From Candidatus Omnitrophota bacterium (GTDB lineage Bacteria; Omnitrophota; Gorgyraeia; 2-01-FULL-45-10): a stretch of DNA of 32,942 nucleotides. The stretch is taken from the NCBI GenBank assembly GCA_016935115.1, contig JAFGRN010000050.1, positions 1 through 32,942 of the forward strand. The letters are read 5' to 3'. This document shows, in pieces, positions 1 to 6,729 of the stretch (its first letter is position 1; the number at the start of each line of letters is the position of its first letter). The position numbers and the translations under genes were made by a program. The notes beneath the pieces are model-generated. The model was given only the letters and a program-made list of their open reading frames with translations. It was not told the DNA's origin and did not search any database.

Positions 1-346
1 CATTGCGGGCTTCTTCGGCTATGCGCGCCTCCTTCGCCTTTCGGGCCTCTTCGGCCTTACGAGCTTTTTCGGCCTTCAGGGCCTCTTCTTCAGCGGCGGC
101 ACGGGCGGCTTCTTCAGCCTTTCTCTCTTTCGCGGCGGCTCTCTTAGCCTTTAAGGCCTCGGCTTTCGCCCTGGACTCTTTTTCATCCTTTATCTGCGCG
201 AAAACATTCGCGGCTTCGGCTTCCGCCGAAAGCATCCTGCCAAAACCGCTCACAAGAATTTCTATATCATCCAAATCTTCCGAAGAAGAGAGGTCTTTCA
301 GGCGCGATACGATCCGTCCATCAGTATATTTCTTCTGTGGCACTTC
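1..346 (-). other. A/E/K-rich coiled coil at the left edge
   Basis: From about residue 2088 the chain becomes a long run of AEEARKA-like units with almost only A, E, K and R. This low-complexity, TolA-like helix should form a rigid coiled coil or single alpha helix spanning tens of nanometres if it continues. The frame is still open at base 2, so length and C-terminus are unknown. Confidence 0.8.
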
Positions 347-3300
347 CGGATAAATAGCGTGATGCACAGTTCTTAAATAGCGCATGATCTCAGGGCTTGC
401 GATAATACGCCTGCGAATATCGCCCCTGGTCAGCTTCGTCAATCCTTTCATGTTAACCAGGATCTCATCATCAAGCTTGTTCGTTATGCCTATATCAAAG
501 TGGTCAAGCTCATGGGGTATCGACTGTAGAATAAGGTGGCTTCTTCTCTTGGGCTGAAGCTCTTTCAGATTTACCCTAATGGCGACGCGGCCATTAGCCC
601 TTTTCTCGATTACCGCTGACCTAGGAAGGTCACCTACAACCTCTATGGTAAGGCCCCCTTTTATTCTCGCAAGTTTTCCGGCAACTGATTTATTCTCAGC
701 AATATAAAGGTTAACCGCTTCCATAACGGCATCCTGCCAATCCTGGTGTTCCTTCCATACCCGAACATAACCCTTGTCGGCCTTTATAGCTTCTATCGTT
801 CCATTCTTAGTAACTTGCGCGCTGCCCTTGGCGAGCACCACCGGCGGACCTTTTACTTTCTCCTTAACCGGCATCTTTGCGCCGCGCGGGACGGCCGCTT
901 TAGCGATCTCCGCATTAAGGGAATCCCTTAATACAACAACGGCCGCATTAATGGTATTTCTCGCTTCATTTGTAGTAAGATTAAACTTTTTACTGAATTC
1001 ACTAAATTCCTTATCCCCCATCTCAACCAACCAATCGCGCGCATATACCCTCTTCACATACTTGGCAGCAAGCCTCGTCATTCTCTCGGGAGTAACCTGC
1101 CCTTTCGCGGCAAGCGCTTCATATTCATTGATCATGTTTATGAAATTAGCGCTGTTAATAGCGAAGGTATCTTTGAGAAATTGAAGGTATGCGGATCTCT
1201 CTTCCGCGGAAACTTTATCATAAAGGTACTTTATTATTTCGGTCGTTACAAAAACTTCTTCATAAAACTCTTCTTCATTGGAAGGAATAGCTCCGCGGGC
1301 ACGCGACGCTTTCAACATCTCATGTAATCTTTCGTGATAGATAGATATGGCGGCCGCCAGGGTATTTCCGAGGGCCACATCTGAAATATCTATACCGCCT
1401 CGCCTGAATGCGGCAAGTTCTTTCATATTGCGCCATATTTTTATTTTACTGGTCTCAATGTCGCTGATGGCATCCCTCATGCCGGCTTTGAGGCTGAGCA
1501 CGGCATCAGATAACACGCCGTTCTGTTCATCGGTAAGCTTCTTAACTCTCACCTCTTTTAGCCCGGTCAGCCTCAATTTTATAAACTCAGCGTTCTTCTT
1601 GATGTCGCGGCCTTTTACGGCAACCCACAGATATGCCCCGTAACCCACCAGCGCCAGGATCGCCACCTGCCACCATGCTAAACCACCGCTCTTGCTGTGT
1701 TTACCGGTAACTGGATCAACGCGTAACTCGGTAGGGCCAATATCATATACACTTACCGAATTGTCGCCGGTTCTCGAAATCGTAAAGGTCCCTTCTGATG
1801 TCCCTAATGGTTTTTTGAATCCTTCATCGAGCTTGTTTCTCTCCACGGCGGAAGATAAGTATCTATGAATACGATCGCTGCATATTGGAGTAATAACCAT
1901 ATCATGCCCATTGCCGAGCTCGGCCCTGGCGCGCTTGATAAGCTCGGCAATTATAGCGGTGTCATCCATATCGGAAAGGTCGGGATAGACCCATGCATCC
2001 ACATAAGATATCCTTACGATGTAGGATTTTCCGTTGGTGGTTACAAATAACGCTATCTCTCTATTGCCTATTATATCCACCGGTGCCATATTGGTATTTG
2101 AAAGATCGTGGACTACCACGGGCTTCGCGGCTCGTTCTTTCTCAAGCTTTTCTATGGCATTAAATATCCTGACTGTATGAGAAAGCCCGGCTTCTTCGGG
2201 CACTATGGGCCTGGCAGTGTTCTCGGCCGATATTTTATTGCCAGCGTAGATCGCGGTAAAAACCAATATTGCTCCTGCAAATATAAATGGCAGAACATTC
2301 GCCTTCACAAAACCGCCAGCATCTCTGGCCCTTGATCTTACGGCAACGGTTATTGCCGGCATTCTGGGCGCTAAAAAGATGGTATAGATCAGGTGTAAAG
2401 AGGCAAGAAGTATTGCGGCGGTACCTACCAGCAGGGGCAGATAACCCAGCTCGGCGGCGATTCGCGCGATTATGGCAAATGAGGCAGGTGCCATCTGGAG
2501 CCTTCCCCTTAACGCTCTTTCACGCTCGCTTCTCAAGCGCTCTAATTCTTTTATCTGTTCGCTTACGGCCTCGGGAGCTTTTAATCCTTTAAGTTTCCCC
2601 AGATCCATCTCGCCGTTTTCCGATACGGCTGAAAGCAGTTCGTCCTGCGTGAATTTGCCCATCGCCACACTATTCATAATATCGAGTTTGGCGGTTACGG
2701 TGTCCCCGCTCTTAATGATGCTGGACATCTCGGCTTTTATATCGCTATCCGGAGAGCTATCGTTGATAATGTTCAGATTTTTTACTATATTGCTTATCTC
2801 ATCCCGCACTCCTTCTATCAGCGGTTTCCAGGCCCTCTGCGCTGCCAGAACCCTGTCCTCGCCCGCGACCGCTAGTATCTCTACTATATCCTTGCTGTCC
2901 GGCGATACTCCGAGCATCTGATCATAGCCTTTGACAATAGCAAAAGGCTGCTCATTGGCATAGCCTGCCGTAGCAAGATATTGTATGGATAGATCGGAAA
3001 TATTCTCCAGGAATTTTTCAAGATCTTCGGATTGTTTCAATAGCTTAATAAAATCATCCCTGTTAGCGGCCGCTACCATGTTCCTCATGACTCTTTCATT
3101 CACGGCGGCAAGGGATATAGGCAGGATTTTATTGGTCACAAGATGCTTGATCATCGCTGTATACACCCTATGGGCATAGTATTCCATATCCCTCAGGACC
3201 CTTCTGTTTATATCTTTATCTTCCGTAAGCTCTTTTCTATACTTCACATATCTAGCGGCATCGCCGGTTTCTGTGCGTTCGGTTACCACAGGCCCGCCGA

Positions 3301-6300
3301 CTTCCGTTATGTACTTTATTATGCTTTTTGTATATGACGCTATATCAACATTTTTGGAAATATCTATATTCAGGGCATCCAGTATCGCCGCAAGGCGCGG
3401 ATGCGCGGACCTTTGTCCGTTATGTATCTTAAAGAAAGCTATCAGCCTGAGCACGGTGAGAAGGGTCGTCATAACTTCCTCTTCAGCTCCGCGGTTCACG
3501 CTCCTGCCGAACCTCTGGAACTCCTGCCTCAAGACGATATGATAACCTTCATGCGGTATATCAAATTCACGGACATCCACTTTCAGGTGGCCGTCCTTAT
3601 CAATGGCCCTCCTGTCCACCAGGAGATACCATTCACCCTGCTTCTTAAAGTAGATCTTCGCAAATTTATCCATGCCGTCTACAATGCGGATATTGCCATG
3701 CAGCGCTTTAGCCGCTACAGGCGGCAAAGCGGATTCGGCTTCTTTTATCGCTGTTTCTTCCGCTTTAGTAGCTTCCTGCGGCAAGGTGTCCCTTTCGGCA
3801 TCGGCTCTCTTTATAAGTTCAGCTTCCGTAAGGAACCGGCCTGTTGTGGTAATCCCCATCTTATCCCTGATATCCTGAACATGCCTGCCGCTCACTATCA
3901 TCATACCGGCAACTGTGCTGACCCCATCCGCGTTTGCAAGCGCTTCCTTTTCCCTGGCTTCCACTATATATATATCAGGGATCAACTCGCCGCCTACCAC
4001 CTCAGAGACTTCCGGCTCTTCGGCAGTGGCAACGGGCTTTTCCGCTATAACTACCGGCTTTTCCGGAATAGCCTCCGCAATGGGCTTTTCAGCGAGCTTC
4101 GCCTGCAATGCGACAGTTATGGACTGTTCCAGCGCTTTCCTATCCTCCGATGACACATTCTGCAGTCCTTTTGCCTTAAACTGTCTATTCAGGAGGTCTC
4201 CTATATCATCCACCGATCTGGCCGACCCGACAATGGCTGCTTTTATATTGGCTTCCGCATCCGCATCGAGCTTTACGCGCATATCTTTATCGGCTTCGAG
4301 CCTGCCGAGCCTGTCATAGATGTCCTGAAGCTCCGCGGCGCTAATTTCTTTAGCTCCTGCCTGCGCCGACAGAGATCTCTCAAAGACTTTTATCTCCACG
4401 GCTGAGGCGGAATGGCTCGTTATGGCGCCGTCTTTCTCCCTCTCTACCGTTATGTAAGCGTCATTCAATTTCATCACCGCCGCGGAGGCGCTAAGCCTGA
4501 CACCTTTTATGGCCTCTACCAGCCTCCCAAAATCCTTGGGCGAGAGGCTATTCGGCAGCATCGATGTAACCGCTATCTGCGTATCGCCCGCAGGGATTGC
4601 TTCGTCGGCTGGAGTTAGGCCGTAGCCTTCTCGCAATGACGGCGTAGAAGATTCATCCGCGGGTTTTACACCATCATTGCGAGGCAGCGAAGCCACACTC
4701 TCGTCATTGCGAGGCAGCGAAGCTGCCGAAGCAATCTCTCCCTCCCCCCGTATATATCCCTGAGATACAAGCTCCTCATACTTATCCTTATAGCTCTGTA
4801 TCCACAGCTTCTTCACACTTTCCAAATCCTTCCTGTCCATAACCGCCTGGGCCAGGCTTGTGATCACGATATCCTGGATAAAGAGCTCTACCTTTTTCGG
4901 GTCCGCGATACCGGCGTTGAAATAATTGTCAGTGGCTATCTTGTATTTGCCGGATGCCAGGAGGTTATCATAATCATCTTTCTGATTGGTAAGGATCGCC
5001 ACATAGGGCCTTTCACCCTTGGAAGCGTCGAACTTCGGAAGTATCACTATGTAGGATGTGCGGTTCTGTCTCAGGAGTTCGGTAATGCCCTGGGAGTGAT
5101 AACCGCCGGTAATAAGGGCGGCTACATTCTGCCCTTTTTCTTTCATGCGCTCGATGGTATTGGCCAGTATCGTATGATTTCTTTTCTCGGCGGTCCTGTA
5201 AAAAGAGAGGGCCATGGGAACGTCATTGAATATTTTTCCGAGATCATAGCCGCCGCTTAAAACCACGCCATATTTTAGCGAGGCGTCTTTTATATAAGAA
5301 GCCGTAAACGCAGCATTACAGTTTTCTATGTGTGTCGAGAGGTAGGCGAAGTCGGCGTTTGTGAGCTTCATCTCAAAGAGATCCTTCAGGAACTCCGCGC
5401 ACTTCGATATTTCGTAGAGCTTCTTTTGATCTTCCCCGGTGAAGATCTTCTCCATTATCTGGTCTTCAAAAGCCCTTACTTCTTCGAATATCGCGGTCAG
5501 GTCTATGGATTCATAGAGGGTAATGTATTCAGTGTAGGTTATAAGGTTCTTGTAATTCGACGCGTCTATATCCGCCTTTTCGGCCTTATCCTGCAGGAAG
5601 ATATAATACTCGCCCTGCGATATCTTGCCGGTCTTGAATAAAAGCGACTTCAACACGATCTCTTCGAGATTCTGCTTGGAGACCTGCTTCGAAAGCGTAT
5701 CGATAAGGGCATCGCGCTCCTTATTGGCCTTGTCGAAGCTTATGCCCTTCTCCAGTTTAAGGGCCTCTACCAGTTTTGTAAGATTTTCATACCTGCGGTA
5801 ATCTGAATGTGTCTTATCGGCAAGCTCCTTCACCAGGCTCCAGCGCTGGGTAAATGTAAGTTTGCCGTCTTTATGGAGAACTGAATTGGCAGTCAGATCT
5901 TTCATATCCTGGGAGTAGATCTTATCCTGCAGAGTTTTAAGCGCGGCCAGGAGATTTTTGATATCCGGGGCTATGGCGGCACCGGCCTCGTGTATTGCCC
6001 TGAACTGGTCGGCGTTTTCAAGATAAAGTGATTTGTCTTCAATACCATAGACGGCTATCTGCTTGCCTGAAGTTATGGCAAAAAACTCGCCTGCTGACAA
6101 CTTGCCGGCAGCCATGAAATGCTTTGCCGTGTCTTTTTTAATATTATCGTCCGGGAATGTGCTCAGTATGGACGTATCCACGTAGCCTGAAGAACCCTCT
6201 ATAGCTATAAGCTTGAGATCGTAATTAGTGGCTAATGAATCAAGGACGGAGGCTATCGACTCCTGGGCGCCTAAAGACGCGTGGGCATCCTGGATGTTTA

Positions 6301-6607
6301 TGATTGTGCGGTCGCCGGGGGCTGTATAGACTTCTTTTGTTACTGCGACGTCTTTCGGGACATTGATGGGGCTGGCTACATTAACCGGAGGCTTAAAAGA
6401 AAAACTCCCGTTCTGTCCTTTGGACCAAACAGGAGCTCCATCTTGCGCCCAGACCAGATCCTGATTTATGAAAGTAACGACAAGGATGAGAGCAACTATG
6501 CGGATCCACTTCTTGTTTCGAGGACTCTGCCAGTCCATGATCAGGGATTTCGATCCCATCTCATCTCTGGTACTATCGACGGTATCTCCAATGCGCCAAG
6601 CATTCAT
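1..6607 (-). CDS. Large exported multidomain protein: TIKI/TraB-like domain, two HExxH motifs, coiled coil (3' partial)
   Basis: Starts at ATG 6607-6605 and is open for 2,202 codons to the left edge, so the C-terminus is missing. The start is supported by an AAGGGG ribosome site 10 bases upstream and a strong promoter behind it. Residues 30-54 form a signal peptide (NKKWIR, hydrophobic core, then DLVWA). Residues about 100-530 resemble the TIKI/TraB/ChaN fold (H109, E137, H504). Residues about 620-670 are a linker built from a dispersed DNA repeat. HEGYH lies at 1019-1023 and HELDH at 2032-2036. Membrane segments lie at about 1385-1411, 1436-1456 and 1644-1663. The tail from about 2088 is an A/E/K-rich coiled coil. 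It lies 318 bases downstream of the giant gene on the same strand but has its own promoter. Probably a membrane-anchored envelope protein with hydrolase-like domains; substrate unknown. No full-length family is recognised. Confidence 0.9.
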   Translation of the reverse strand, partial: MNAWRIGDTVDSTRDEMGSKSLIMDWQSPRNKKWIRIVALILVVTFINQDLVWAQDGAPVWSKGQNGSFSFKPPVNVASPINVPKDVAVTKEVYTAPGDRTIINIQDAHASLGAQESIASVLDSLATNYDLKLIAIEGSSGYVDTSILSTFPDDNIKKDTAKHFMAAGKLSAGEFFAITSGKQIAVYGIEDKSLYLENADQFRAIHEAGAAIAPDIKNLLAALKTLQDKIYSQDMKDLTANSVLHKDGKLTFTQRWSLVKELADKTHSDYRRYENLTKLVEALKLEKGISFDKANKERDALIDTLSKQVSKQNLEEIVLKSLLFKTGKISQGEYYIFLQDKAEKADIDASNYKNLITYTEYITLYESIDLTAIFEEVRAFEDQIMEKIFTGEDQKKLYEISKCAEFLKDLFEMKLTNADFAYLSTHIENCNAAFTASYIKDASLKYGVVLSGGYDLGKIFNDVPMALSFYRTAEKRNHTILANTIERMKEKGQNVAALITGGYHSQGITELLRQNRTSYIVILPKFDASKGERPYVAILTNQKDDYDNLLASGKYKIATDNYFNAGIADPKKVELFIQDIVITSLAQAVMDRKDLESVKKLWIQSYKDKYEELVSQGYIRGEGEIASAASLPRNDESVASLPRNDGVKPADESSTPSLREGYGLTPADEAIPAGDTQIAVTSMLPNSLSPKDFGRLVEAIKGVRLSASAAVMKLNDAYITVEREKDGAITSHSASAVEIKVFERSLSAQAGAKEISAAELQDIYDRLGRLEADKDMRVKLDADAEANIKAAIVGSARSVDDIGDLLNRQFKAKGLQNVSSEDRKALEQSITVALQAKLAEKPIAEAIPEKPVVIAEKPVATAEEPEVSEVVGGELIPDIYIVEAREKEALANADGVSTVAGMMIVSGRHVQDIRDKMGITTTGRFLTEAELIKRADAERDTLPQEATKAEETAIKEAESALPPVAAKALHGNIRIVDGMDKFAKIYFKKQGEWYLLVDRRAIDKDGHLKVDVREFDIPHEGYHIVLRQEFQRFGRSVNRGAEEEVMTTLLTVLRLIAFFKIHNGQRSAHPRLAAILDALNIDISKNVDIASYTKSIIKYITEVGGPVVTERTETGDAARYVKYRKELTEDKDINRRVLRDMEYYAHRVYTAMIKHLVTNKILPISLAAVNERVMRNMVAAANRDDFIKLLKQSEDLEKFLENISDLSIQYLATAGYANEQPFAIVKGYDQMLGVSPDSKDIVEILAVAGEDRVLAAQRAWKPLIEGVRDEISNIVKNLNIINDSSPDSDIKAEMSSIIKSGDTVTAKLDIMNSVAMGKFTQDELLSAVSENGEMDLGKLKGLKAPEAVSEQIKELERLRSERERALRGRLQMAPASFAIIARIAAELGYLPLLVGTAAILLASLHLIYTIFLAPRMPAITVAVRSRARDAGGFVKANVLPFIFAGAILVFTAIYAGNKISAENTARPIVPEEAGLSHTVRIFNAIEKLEKERAAKPVVVHDLSNTNMAPVDIIGNREIALFVTTNGKSYIVRISYVDAWVYPDLSDMDDTAIIAELIKRARAELGNGHDMVITPICSDRIHRYLSSAVERNKLDEGFKKPLGTSEGTFTISRTGDNSVSVYDIGPTELRVDPVTGKHSKSGGLAWWQVAILALVGYGAYLWVAVKGRDIKKNAEFIKLRLTGLKEVRVKKLTDEQNGVLSDAVLSLKAGMRDAISDIETSKIKIWRNMKELAAFRRGGIDISDVALGNTLAAAISIYHERLHEMLKASRARGAIPSNEEEFYEEVFVTTEIIKYLYDKVSAEERSAYLQFLKDTFAINSANFINMINEYEALAAKGQVTPERMTRLAAKYVKRVYARDWLVEMGDKEFSEFSKKFNLTTNEARNTINAAVVVLRDSLNAEIAKAAVPRGAKMPVKEKVKGPPVVLAKGSAQVTKNGTIEAIKADKGYVRVWKEHQDWQDAVMEAVNLYIAENKSVAGKLARIKGGLTIEVVGDLPRSAVIEKRANGRVAIRVNLKELQPKRRSHLILQSIPHELDHFDIGITNKLDDEILVNMKGLTKLTRGDIRRRIIASPEIMRYLRTVHHAIYPEVPQKKYTDGRIVSRLKDLSSSEDLDDIEILVSGFGRMLSAEAEAANVFAQIKDEKESRAKAEALKAKRAAAKERKAEEAARAAAEEEALKAEKARKAEEARKAKEARIAEEARN
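500..514 (-). other. HExxH motif 2 (HELDH) of the second protein
   Basis: HELDH at residues 2032-2036 sits in SIPHELDHFDIG, after a strand rich in basic residues. It has the same 'IPHE..H' context as motif 1 a thousand residues earlier, suggesting two related metallopeptidase-like domains. No third ligand is certain. Confidence 0.5.
1620..1677 (-). other. Third membrane segment of the second protein
   Basis: Residues 1644-1663 (WWQVAILALVGYGAYLWVAV) form a clear span flanked by Trp and followed by basic KGRDIKK. With the preceding hairpin it encloses a soluble domain of about 185 residues, likely outside the membrane. Confidence 0.8.
2240..2452 (-). other. Two membrane segments of the second protein
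   Basis: Residues about 1385-1411 (YLPLLVGTAAILLASLHLIY) and 1436-1456 (LPFIFAGAILVFTAIYAG) are apolar spans with a short basic loop (RSRARD) between them, giving a hairpin with the loop probably cytoplasmic. Confidence 0.75.
3539..3553 (-). other. HExxH motif 1 (HEGYH) of the second protein
   Basis: HEGYH at residues 1019-1023 follows a beta strand (VDVREFDIP) and leads into a helix. A Glu-rich AEEE starts 18 residues after the second His and could give the third zinc ligand, as in gluzincin metallopeptidases (HExxH...E). The nearby sequence has no family I can name. Confidence 0.5.
4592..4738. repeat. Dispersed GTCATTGCGAG-type repeat inside a coding region
   Basis: Three copies are present. 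Minus-strand copy at 4592-4643 has the full CGTCATTGCGAG ... CGACGAAGCAATCCC form. Plus-strand copies are at 4674-4693 (partial, TCATTGCGAGGCAGCGAAGC) and 4703-4738 (GTCATTGCGAGGCAGCGAAG then CCGAAGCAATCTC). This element is a well-known interspersed repeat of many environmental bacterial genomes. It is translated in frame here (SLPRND twice) in the linker after the TIKI-like domain. Confidence 0.85.
5010..6310 (-). other. TIKI/TraB/ChaN-like domain of the second protein
   Basis: The domain opens with TIINIQDAHASLGAQESIAS (H109 at 6281-6283), then LKLIAIEGSSG (E137 at 6197-6199), and ends with AALITGGYHSQGITELL (H504 at 5096-5098) and SYIVILPKF. A histidine after the first strand, a Glu after the second, and a late 'G-G/A-x-H-x-x-G' strand are the layout of the TIKI/TraB/PrgY/ChaN superfamily of metal-dependent hydrolases and haem-binding proteins. 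Assignment is by pattern only. Confidence 0.5.
6446..6520 (-). other. Signal peptide of the second protein
   Basis: A long N-terminal extension leads to a basic n-region (RNKKWIR), a hydrophobic core (IVALILVVTFI) and a polar c-region ending VWA before QD, at about residue 54. This is a Sec-type signal with a likely signal peptidase I site after A54. The core lies unusually far from the start, so a later start (M17 or M24) is possible. Confidence 0.7.
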
Positions 6608-6623: not shown

Positions 6624-6729
6624 ATTTATTCACTATTATAATATACTACTTTAATAACGCAGACACACCACGACCTATAGTGGCTTGTAAACTCAGTCAT
6701 TTTCCAAGCTGGCTTTCTATTCATATTTA

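Follow-up and report, generated by a model that had tools for sequence, protein, structure and literature searches.

A dispersed CGTC-type palindrome probably inserted in frame in a linker of a giant Omnitrophota protein

A segment of a large gene in a draft genome of Candidatus Omnitrophota (1.4 Mb, 79 contigs) contains a short palindrome, CGTCATTGCGAG...GAAGCAATC, as two complete units and a partial one. Judging from comparison with related genomes, the segment very probably arose by in-frame insertion of CGTC-type, REP/RPE-like, non-autonomous palindromes in a linker of the giant protein. The repeat is dispersed, homologues lack it at this position, and the host gene keeps its reading frame. 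The stretch of DNA that was analyzed, referred to as the window, is 32,942 nucleotides long (contig JAFGRN010000050.1), and its features are listed below.

6607..2, minus strand: host ORF, 2,202 aa within the window and open at the contig end, thus at least 2,202 aa
6926..32827, minus strand: neighbouring giant ORF, 8,633 aa
4595..4736, minus strand: repeat-derived insert and spacer, residues 624-671 of the host protein
4595..4641, minus strand: complete REP-like unit 2, long form CGTCATTGCGAG...CCGACGAAGCAATC, translated sense, SLR.. frame
4642..4671, minus strand: spacer with inward-facing heads on either side, encoding about GVKPADESSTP
4672..4693, plus strand: partial unit, a head half without the tail end, source of the second SLPRND
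4702..4736, plus strand: complete REP-like unit 1, CGTCATTGCGAGGCAGCGAAGCTGCCGAAGCAATC, translated antisense, ..RND frame

The host protein is the start of a very large product, the gene being truncated by the contig end. Its ORF is uninterrupted, with 623 residues ahead of the insert and about 1,530 behind it. A Pfam scan of the window protein, N-terminal region included, matched no family. Homologues of the N-terminal region were found in 66 of the 97 relatives searched, many of them within giant ORFs. The 8,633-aa giant ORF adjoins the host gene and shares its strand, and no repeat head was found in it at one mismatch or fewer. Giant ORFs are already known from Omnitrophota (PMC10066038); the main text of that paper has no words starting with repeat or palindrom.

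Repeat heads in the window were located with the search string GTCATTGCGAG, allowing up to one mismatch. Three were detected, at 4630-4640 (minus), 4673-4683 (plus, one mismatch) and 4703-4713 (plus), all inside 84 bp, compared to a chance mean of 0.54; 1 of 100 shuffles reached three. The opposite end of the unit, CGAAGCAATC, occurs exactly at 4595-4604 (minus) and 4727-4736 (plus). Searched alone with one mismatch, this half showed no excess over chance (two found, 3.1 expected). The frame is open throughout the encoded segment, ...EIASAASLPRNDESVASLPRNDGVKPADESSTPSLREGYGLTPADEAIP..., which includes SLPRND twice. The first-pass annotation had described three copies in both orientations inside the gene, with the frame kept and SLPRND encoded twice, and the units and residues listed above agree with it.

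That annotation had also proposed an expansion of the segment. Twenty nucleotides of the partial unit are an exact copy of unit 1 at a spacing of 30 bp (10 codons, in frame), as expected for an expansion. A local duplication following insertion would have copied the head half in frame, giving the second SLPRND. Short tandem arrays of heads that resemble this 30-bp copy were seen at L041:633-739, L069:1493-1593 and L069:5485-5601, with spacings of 32, 45 and 32-37 bp. The two complete units in the window have their heads inward. Since few two-unit clusters have this orientation (4 of 64, compared with 56 of 64 facing outward, counting exact heads only), the pair may represent two nearby insertions and not one dimer. 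The spacer between the heads is possibly a remnant of the original linker.

The segment was compared with homologues of the N-terminal region in an alignment of 18 of the 30 homologous loci, the window's own among them. It was missing at this position in all 17 aligned homologues, including three from the same genus; three of the 17 (L016, L018 and L024) carry repeat heads elsewhere in the locus. Between the kept anchors, the linker has 54 residues in the window protein vs 24 in L008 and 23 in L009, a net gain of about 30 residues, and the alignment with L034 and L035 shows a gap at this position too. Distant homologues that conserve the segment, named in the annotation as evidence against its reading, were looked for and not found. 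An AlphaFold model of the region, built from three sequences, gave coil at low confidence (mean pLDDT of 47.9). Because of this low confidence, the description of the region as a loose linker rests on homologue variability, and on that basis the earlier suggestion of a tolerant linker holds.

The best-matching homologues in the three same-genus genomes have 72-76% protein identity and are without the segment. This comparison suggests that the segment arose after the same-genus splits or was lost in those relatives. The comparison is between species, so the boundaries given for the insert are approximate. For the proposed recency of the insertion, the same-genus relatives provide a bracket only. 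Repeats are able to break assemblies, and in a draft of this many contigs the repeat could have been mis-joined within the gene. The ORF, however, runs on at both sides of the insert, with homologous sequence there in L008 and L009, and similar in-frame inserts are present in other genomes. An assembly artefact is exceedingly improbable.

A search of the whole genome for further copies found 94 exact GTCATTGCGAG heads (45 plus, 49 minus), while the reversed control gave none. Exact matching of one 11-mer makes all repeat counts lower bounds that include a few chance matches (reversed control, 0 to 3 per genome). Across the genus, head numbers were 94, 90, 11 and 5. Of 197 genomes sampled from one class, 118 contain the head; a phylum-wide sample that overlaps the class sample gave 79 of 117. 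The surroundings of all 94 heads in the own genome, 90 in the same-genus G001 and 58 in the same-family G011 were then collected as a three-genome sample. Units separated by a gap of less than 150 bp were counted as one cluster, giving 150 clusters in total. Of the 55 clusters in the own genome, 34 are clear of ORFs of at least 150 aa, 14 lie over an ORF edge and 7 are inside. Because most are not inside ORFs, calling the element a common intergenic repeat was correct. A very dense region, L069 (own genome, contig C65, 1-5635), has 15 heads in less than 6 kb.

Among 241 readable units, 169 start with CGTC and 60 with TGTC, the first base alone being left free in the search string. Unit length had a median of 46 nt in the 206 units whose end could be recognised. 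The outer stem, ATTGC/GCAAT (5 bp), formed with at least four of its five pairs in 127 of 206 MFE folds, and the inner part is variable. Tails of these 206 units were CTC (89), CTA (88), CTT (19), CCC (9) and CTG (1). The 64 two-unit clusters of the three genomes comprise 56 inverted pairs with CGTC ends outward, 4 inward pairs including that of the window, and 4 pairs in the same direction. The hairpin tips in L051 hold a second palindrome-like stretch, TCCCGAGCGAAGTCGAGGG, with the peptide LRSGQAG, and units in L159 and L167 encode TLSEVEG; the tips of the repeat look exchangeable or nested. Cluster pairs with both flanking genes matching numbered 4 between the own genome (G000) and G001, 0 between G000 and G011, and 2 between G001 and G011, in which turnover and loss of gene order are inseparable.

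Although ORFs of at least 150 aa make up 88% of the sampled DNA, only 20 of the 150 clusters were inside one (at least 30 codons within such an ORF); 27 lay over an ORF edge and 103 outside. Fourteen clusters were in frame and deep, meaning no closer than 100 residues to the start or 60 to the end, limits that were picked after viewing the cluster list. Ten of these 14 were in ORFs of at least 1,000 aa, compared to an expected share of 22% weighted by ORF length (p = 1e-4). This excess was also seen with the window left out (9 of 13, p = 3e-4), when distinct genes were counted with the window left out (7 of 11, p = 0.003) and at a limit of 1,500 aa (6 of 14, p = 0.01). All of these figures are estimates, as the fetched stretches truncate ORFs and the regions sampled are repeat-bearing ones. 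One long host, L051 (own genome, contig C24), is an ORF of at least 2,737 aa with separate in-frame units at 3020-3077 and 6632-6689.

Six of the 11 protein hosts of deep copies were scanned with Pfam (L108, L158, L166, L167 and L170 were left out), and five were named: GyrB, in which an intein carries the repeat, a family 9 glycosyltransferase, DnaX, QueA and a HEAT-repeat protein. The sixth, L051, had no Pfam match. The copy in QueA lies in a loop of variable length and that in DnaX in a variable linker. In the GyrB gene of G001 (L113, gene 2668-6138), a repeat dimer at 4581-4668 is within the intein, a mobile element in a mobile element; the Intein_splicing match covers residues 459-769 of 1157 aa and the repeat falls at residues about 638-666.

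The insert might instead be a regulatory RNA hairpin affecting mRNA stability or translation pausing, with the peptide as a by-product. The sense RNA did fold better than shuffled sequences (z = -3.1), 1 in 200 of which did equally well, but any palindromic repeat would be expected to fold likewise, and an Rfam search with the segment gave no match up to E = 1. Its absence from the 17 aligned homologues and the occurrence of other inserts at different places and in unrelated genes also argue against a hairpin function, which we consider very unlikely.

Recurrence of the insertion was seen in the family of the N-terminal domain itself. Fifty-one homologous loci were assembled, namely the 30 homologues, 20 picked in repeat-rich genomes and L108, which came from the repeat catalogue. 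The repeat was within the matched span in six of them (L016, L017, L018, L030, L108 and L241); the window's own copy falls outside the counted span. L017 and L018 have their site in common, following residues 428-429 in the window protein; the gap in L016 was placed nearby, after residue 453. The six loci therefore represent four or five separate events. Calculated from the repeat numbers of the genomes, the expected number of repeat-bearing loci was 0.15 from the deep fraction, or 0.22 from the laxer inside fraction (L241 lies near the N terminus), with 60 heads assumed for nine loci of unknown density. At an expectation of 0.22, four or more events have p = 8e-5, and three or more, with L108 dropped and L016 merged, have p = 0.0015. 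The neighbourhood of the L017/L018 site is possibly an insertion hot spot. An inward-head repeat pair in another arrangement was observed near the L017/L018 site in L016 (2790-2884, G026).

The inserts in this family contain no stops and are 29 (L018), 44 (L017), 17 (L030), 39 (L108) and 13 (L016) residues long, and that of L016 appears to replace part of the domain as well. In L030, L016 and L018, lengths also differ by 8 to 20 residues at points where no repeat is present. It had been suggested that such insertion is a way in which these genes grow. The process is indeed recurrent, with four or five other sites in the domain family, but the gain is in the tens of codons, in genes that are thousands of codons long. 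In the window protein, about 30 residues net were gained in at least 2,200, and so the contribution to gene size is minor.

The deep units favour certain reading frames. Of 21 such units, 12 are read in the RND frame, 7 in SLR, 1 in VIA, 1 in AMT and none in RHC, so that two of the five usable frames account for 19. For comparison, the frames are open in 88 (RND), 104 (SLR), 118 (VIA), 88 (AMT) and 125 (RHC) of 146 intergenic units, and the sixth frame in none. The combined excess of RND and SLR has p = 3e-5, or 1.5e-4 without the window. Units within one cluster are not independent (in L170, one tail is common to two units), and counting a single unit for each cluster without the window gives 1.2e-3. 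The bias was weaker when all 30 units inside ORFs were counted, shallow ones included (RND 15, SLR 7, VIA 4, RHC 2, AMT 2). Several of the shallow units may lie beyond the true gene. Hydropathy fits as the cause of the bias only in part. The frame values (AMT +0.71, VIA -0.34, SLR -0.55, RND -0.75, RHC -0.88) fit the avoidance of AMT but fail on RHC, which is avoided and is the most hydrophilic frame.

The dominance of two frames suggests that the type of peptide encoded has a bearing at least on tolerance. The same dominance could be taken to mean that the inserted peptide was co-opted as a spacer or as a cleavage or binding site, its sequence being under selection. At the sole site common to two genomes, however, the peptides differ in both length (44 residues in L017, 29 in L018) and frame (SLAFGSLAMT...APRND against SLPSVARND), which argues against a conserved peptide function. 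Co-option is therefore unlikely, and most likely, as far as these sequence comparisons can indicate, the inserted peptide is a tolerated filler without a dedicated function.

Y1 transposases were considered as the source of mobility. Y1_Tnp matches were found in 154 of the 197 class genomes, and head number showed no association with their presence (Mann-Whitney p = 0.36, 197 genomes). Genomes with a match had a mean of 10.6 heads per genome (median 1), and the 43 without had a mean of 5.8 (median 1). No Y1_Tnp match was obtained in seven genomes with at least 10 heads; two of the seven are less than 80% complete, and absence from draft genomes is weak evidence. The repeat-rich genomes without a match include G027 (62 heads), G098 (33), G122 (30) and G074 (28). 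The three Y1_Tnp loci of the own genome (L001-L003, stretches of about 3 kb) contain no TCATTGCGA, and none of 30 Y1_Tnp loci of the class sample has a repeat head, these being the best-scoring loci and many from repeat-poor genomes. A RAYT was rejected as the mobiliser given this lack of number association and of heads around the Y1_Tnp genes examined. The evidence does not call for a Y1 (RAYT-type) transposase, and the mobilising enzyme need not be one.

Together, these results are consistent with a model in which copies land widely by way of some mobiliser and selection purges most insertions in genes. The survivors would be in-frame copies in loops or linkers, which would be plentiful in long modular proteins. 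We tentatively propose that palindrome capture in two preferred frames could be a recurrent source of loops and linkers in long and giant Omnitrophota proteins. Counting the window, one N-terminal domain family would then have been hit at five or six places, a record of where the fold accepts new peptides. Should the long-ORF and two-frame preferences be confirmed in larger data sets, they would amount to a natural insertion-tolerance experiment on a protein fold, readable by comparison. The phylum that carries this CGTC-like repeat is known for giant ORFs (PMC10066038), and the repeat-rich genomes without a detected Y1 transposase help make the mover of CGTC repeats a testable question.

In open PMC literature, judged from titles and the starts of abstracts, no work related to GTCATTGCGAG was found. 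SLPRND was not mentioned in the open PMC literature searched, and REP-type repeats in candidate phyla gave no match there. The closest known elements are the Rickettsia palindromic elements and the CGTC-tagged REPs. The latter are short palindromes in which an unpaired tag, CGTC or TGTC, precedes a stem that starts with A-T pairs (PMC3733652). They are described as chiefly intergenic, often in inverted pairs and sometimes intragenic (PMC3733652; Di Nocera, De Gregorio and Rocco 2013), with flexible linkers or loops suggested as neutral sites for the intragenic copies and, in the same account, no linked transposase genes (PMC3733652). The present repeat shares the tag (CGTC in 169 and TGTC in 60 of 241 units), the intergenic bias, the inverted pairs, the intragenic cases and the lack of a transposase link, here for Y1_Tnp only. 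Among inverted dimers of CGTC-tagged REPs, HH is predominant and TT rare (PMC3733652); most pairs here have their tags outward (56 of 64, with 4 inward and 4 in the same direction), whichever geometry HH denotes there. CGTC-tagged REPs have stems of 8-9 bp, loops of 4-5 nt and mainly CCA tails, and are reported from five phyla that exclude Omnitrophota (PMC3733652). The Omnitrophota repeat, in contrast, has a 5-bp outer stem, a variable inner part, a median length of 46 nt and mainly CTC or CTA tails.

RAYT/REP systems (REPtrons) likewise have palindromic units, often in inverted pairs (PMC3733652), as does the present repeat. A RAYT gene flanked by the repeat was not seen at the Y1_Tnp loci of the own genome (L001-L003). 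Rickettsia palindromic elements (RPE) insert in frame into unrelated protein genes, and in-frame palindromic inserts have been reported chiefly from Rickettsia (PMC10969869); two of these elements, RPE-4 and RPE-6 of R. conorii, correspond to CGTC-4 and CGTC-1 (PMC3733652). The likeness to RPE drawn here is one of behaviour, given the 14 deep in-frame clusters of 150, and the differences are the phylum and the preference of deep insertions for long ORFs. The event is thus of a known kind by behaviour, and its stem, loop and tail set the repeat apart from the four CGTC families. What it adds to that kind, namely the long-ORF preference, the two-frame bias and repeated insertion in one domain family of giant proteins, is worth following.
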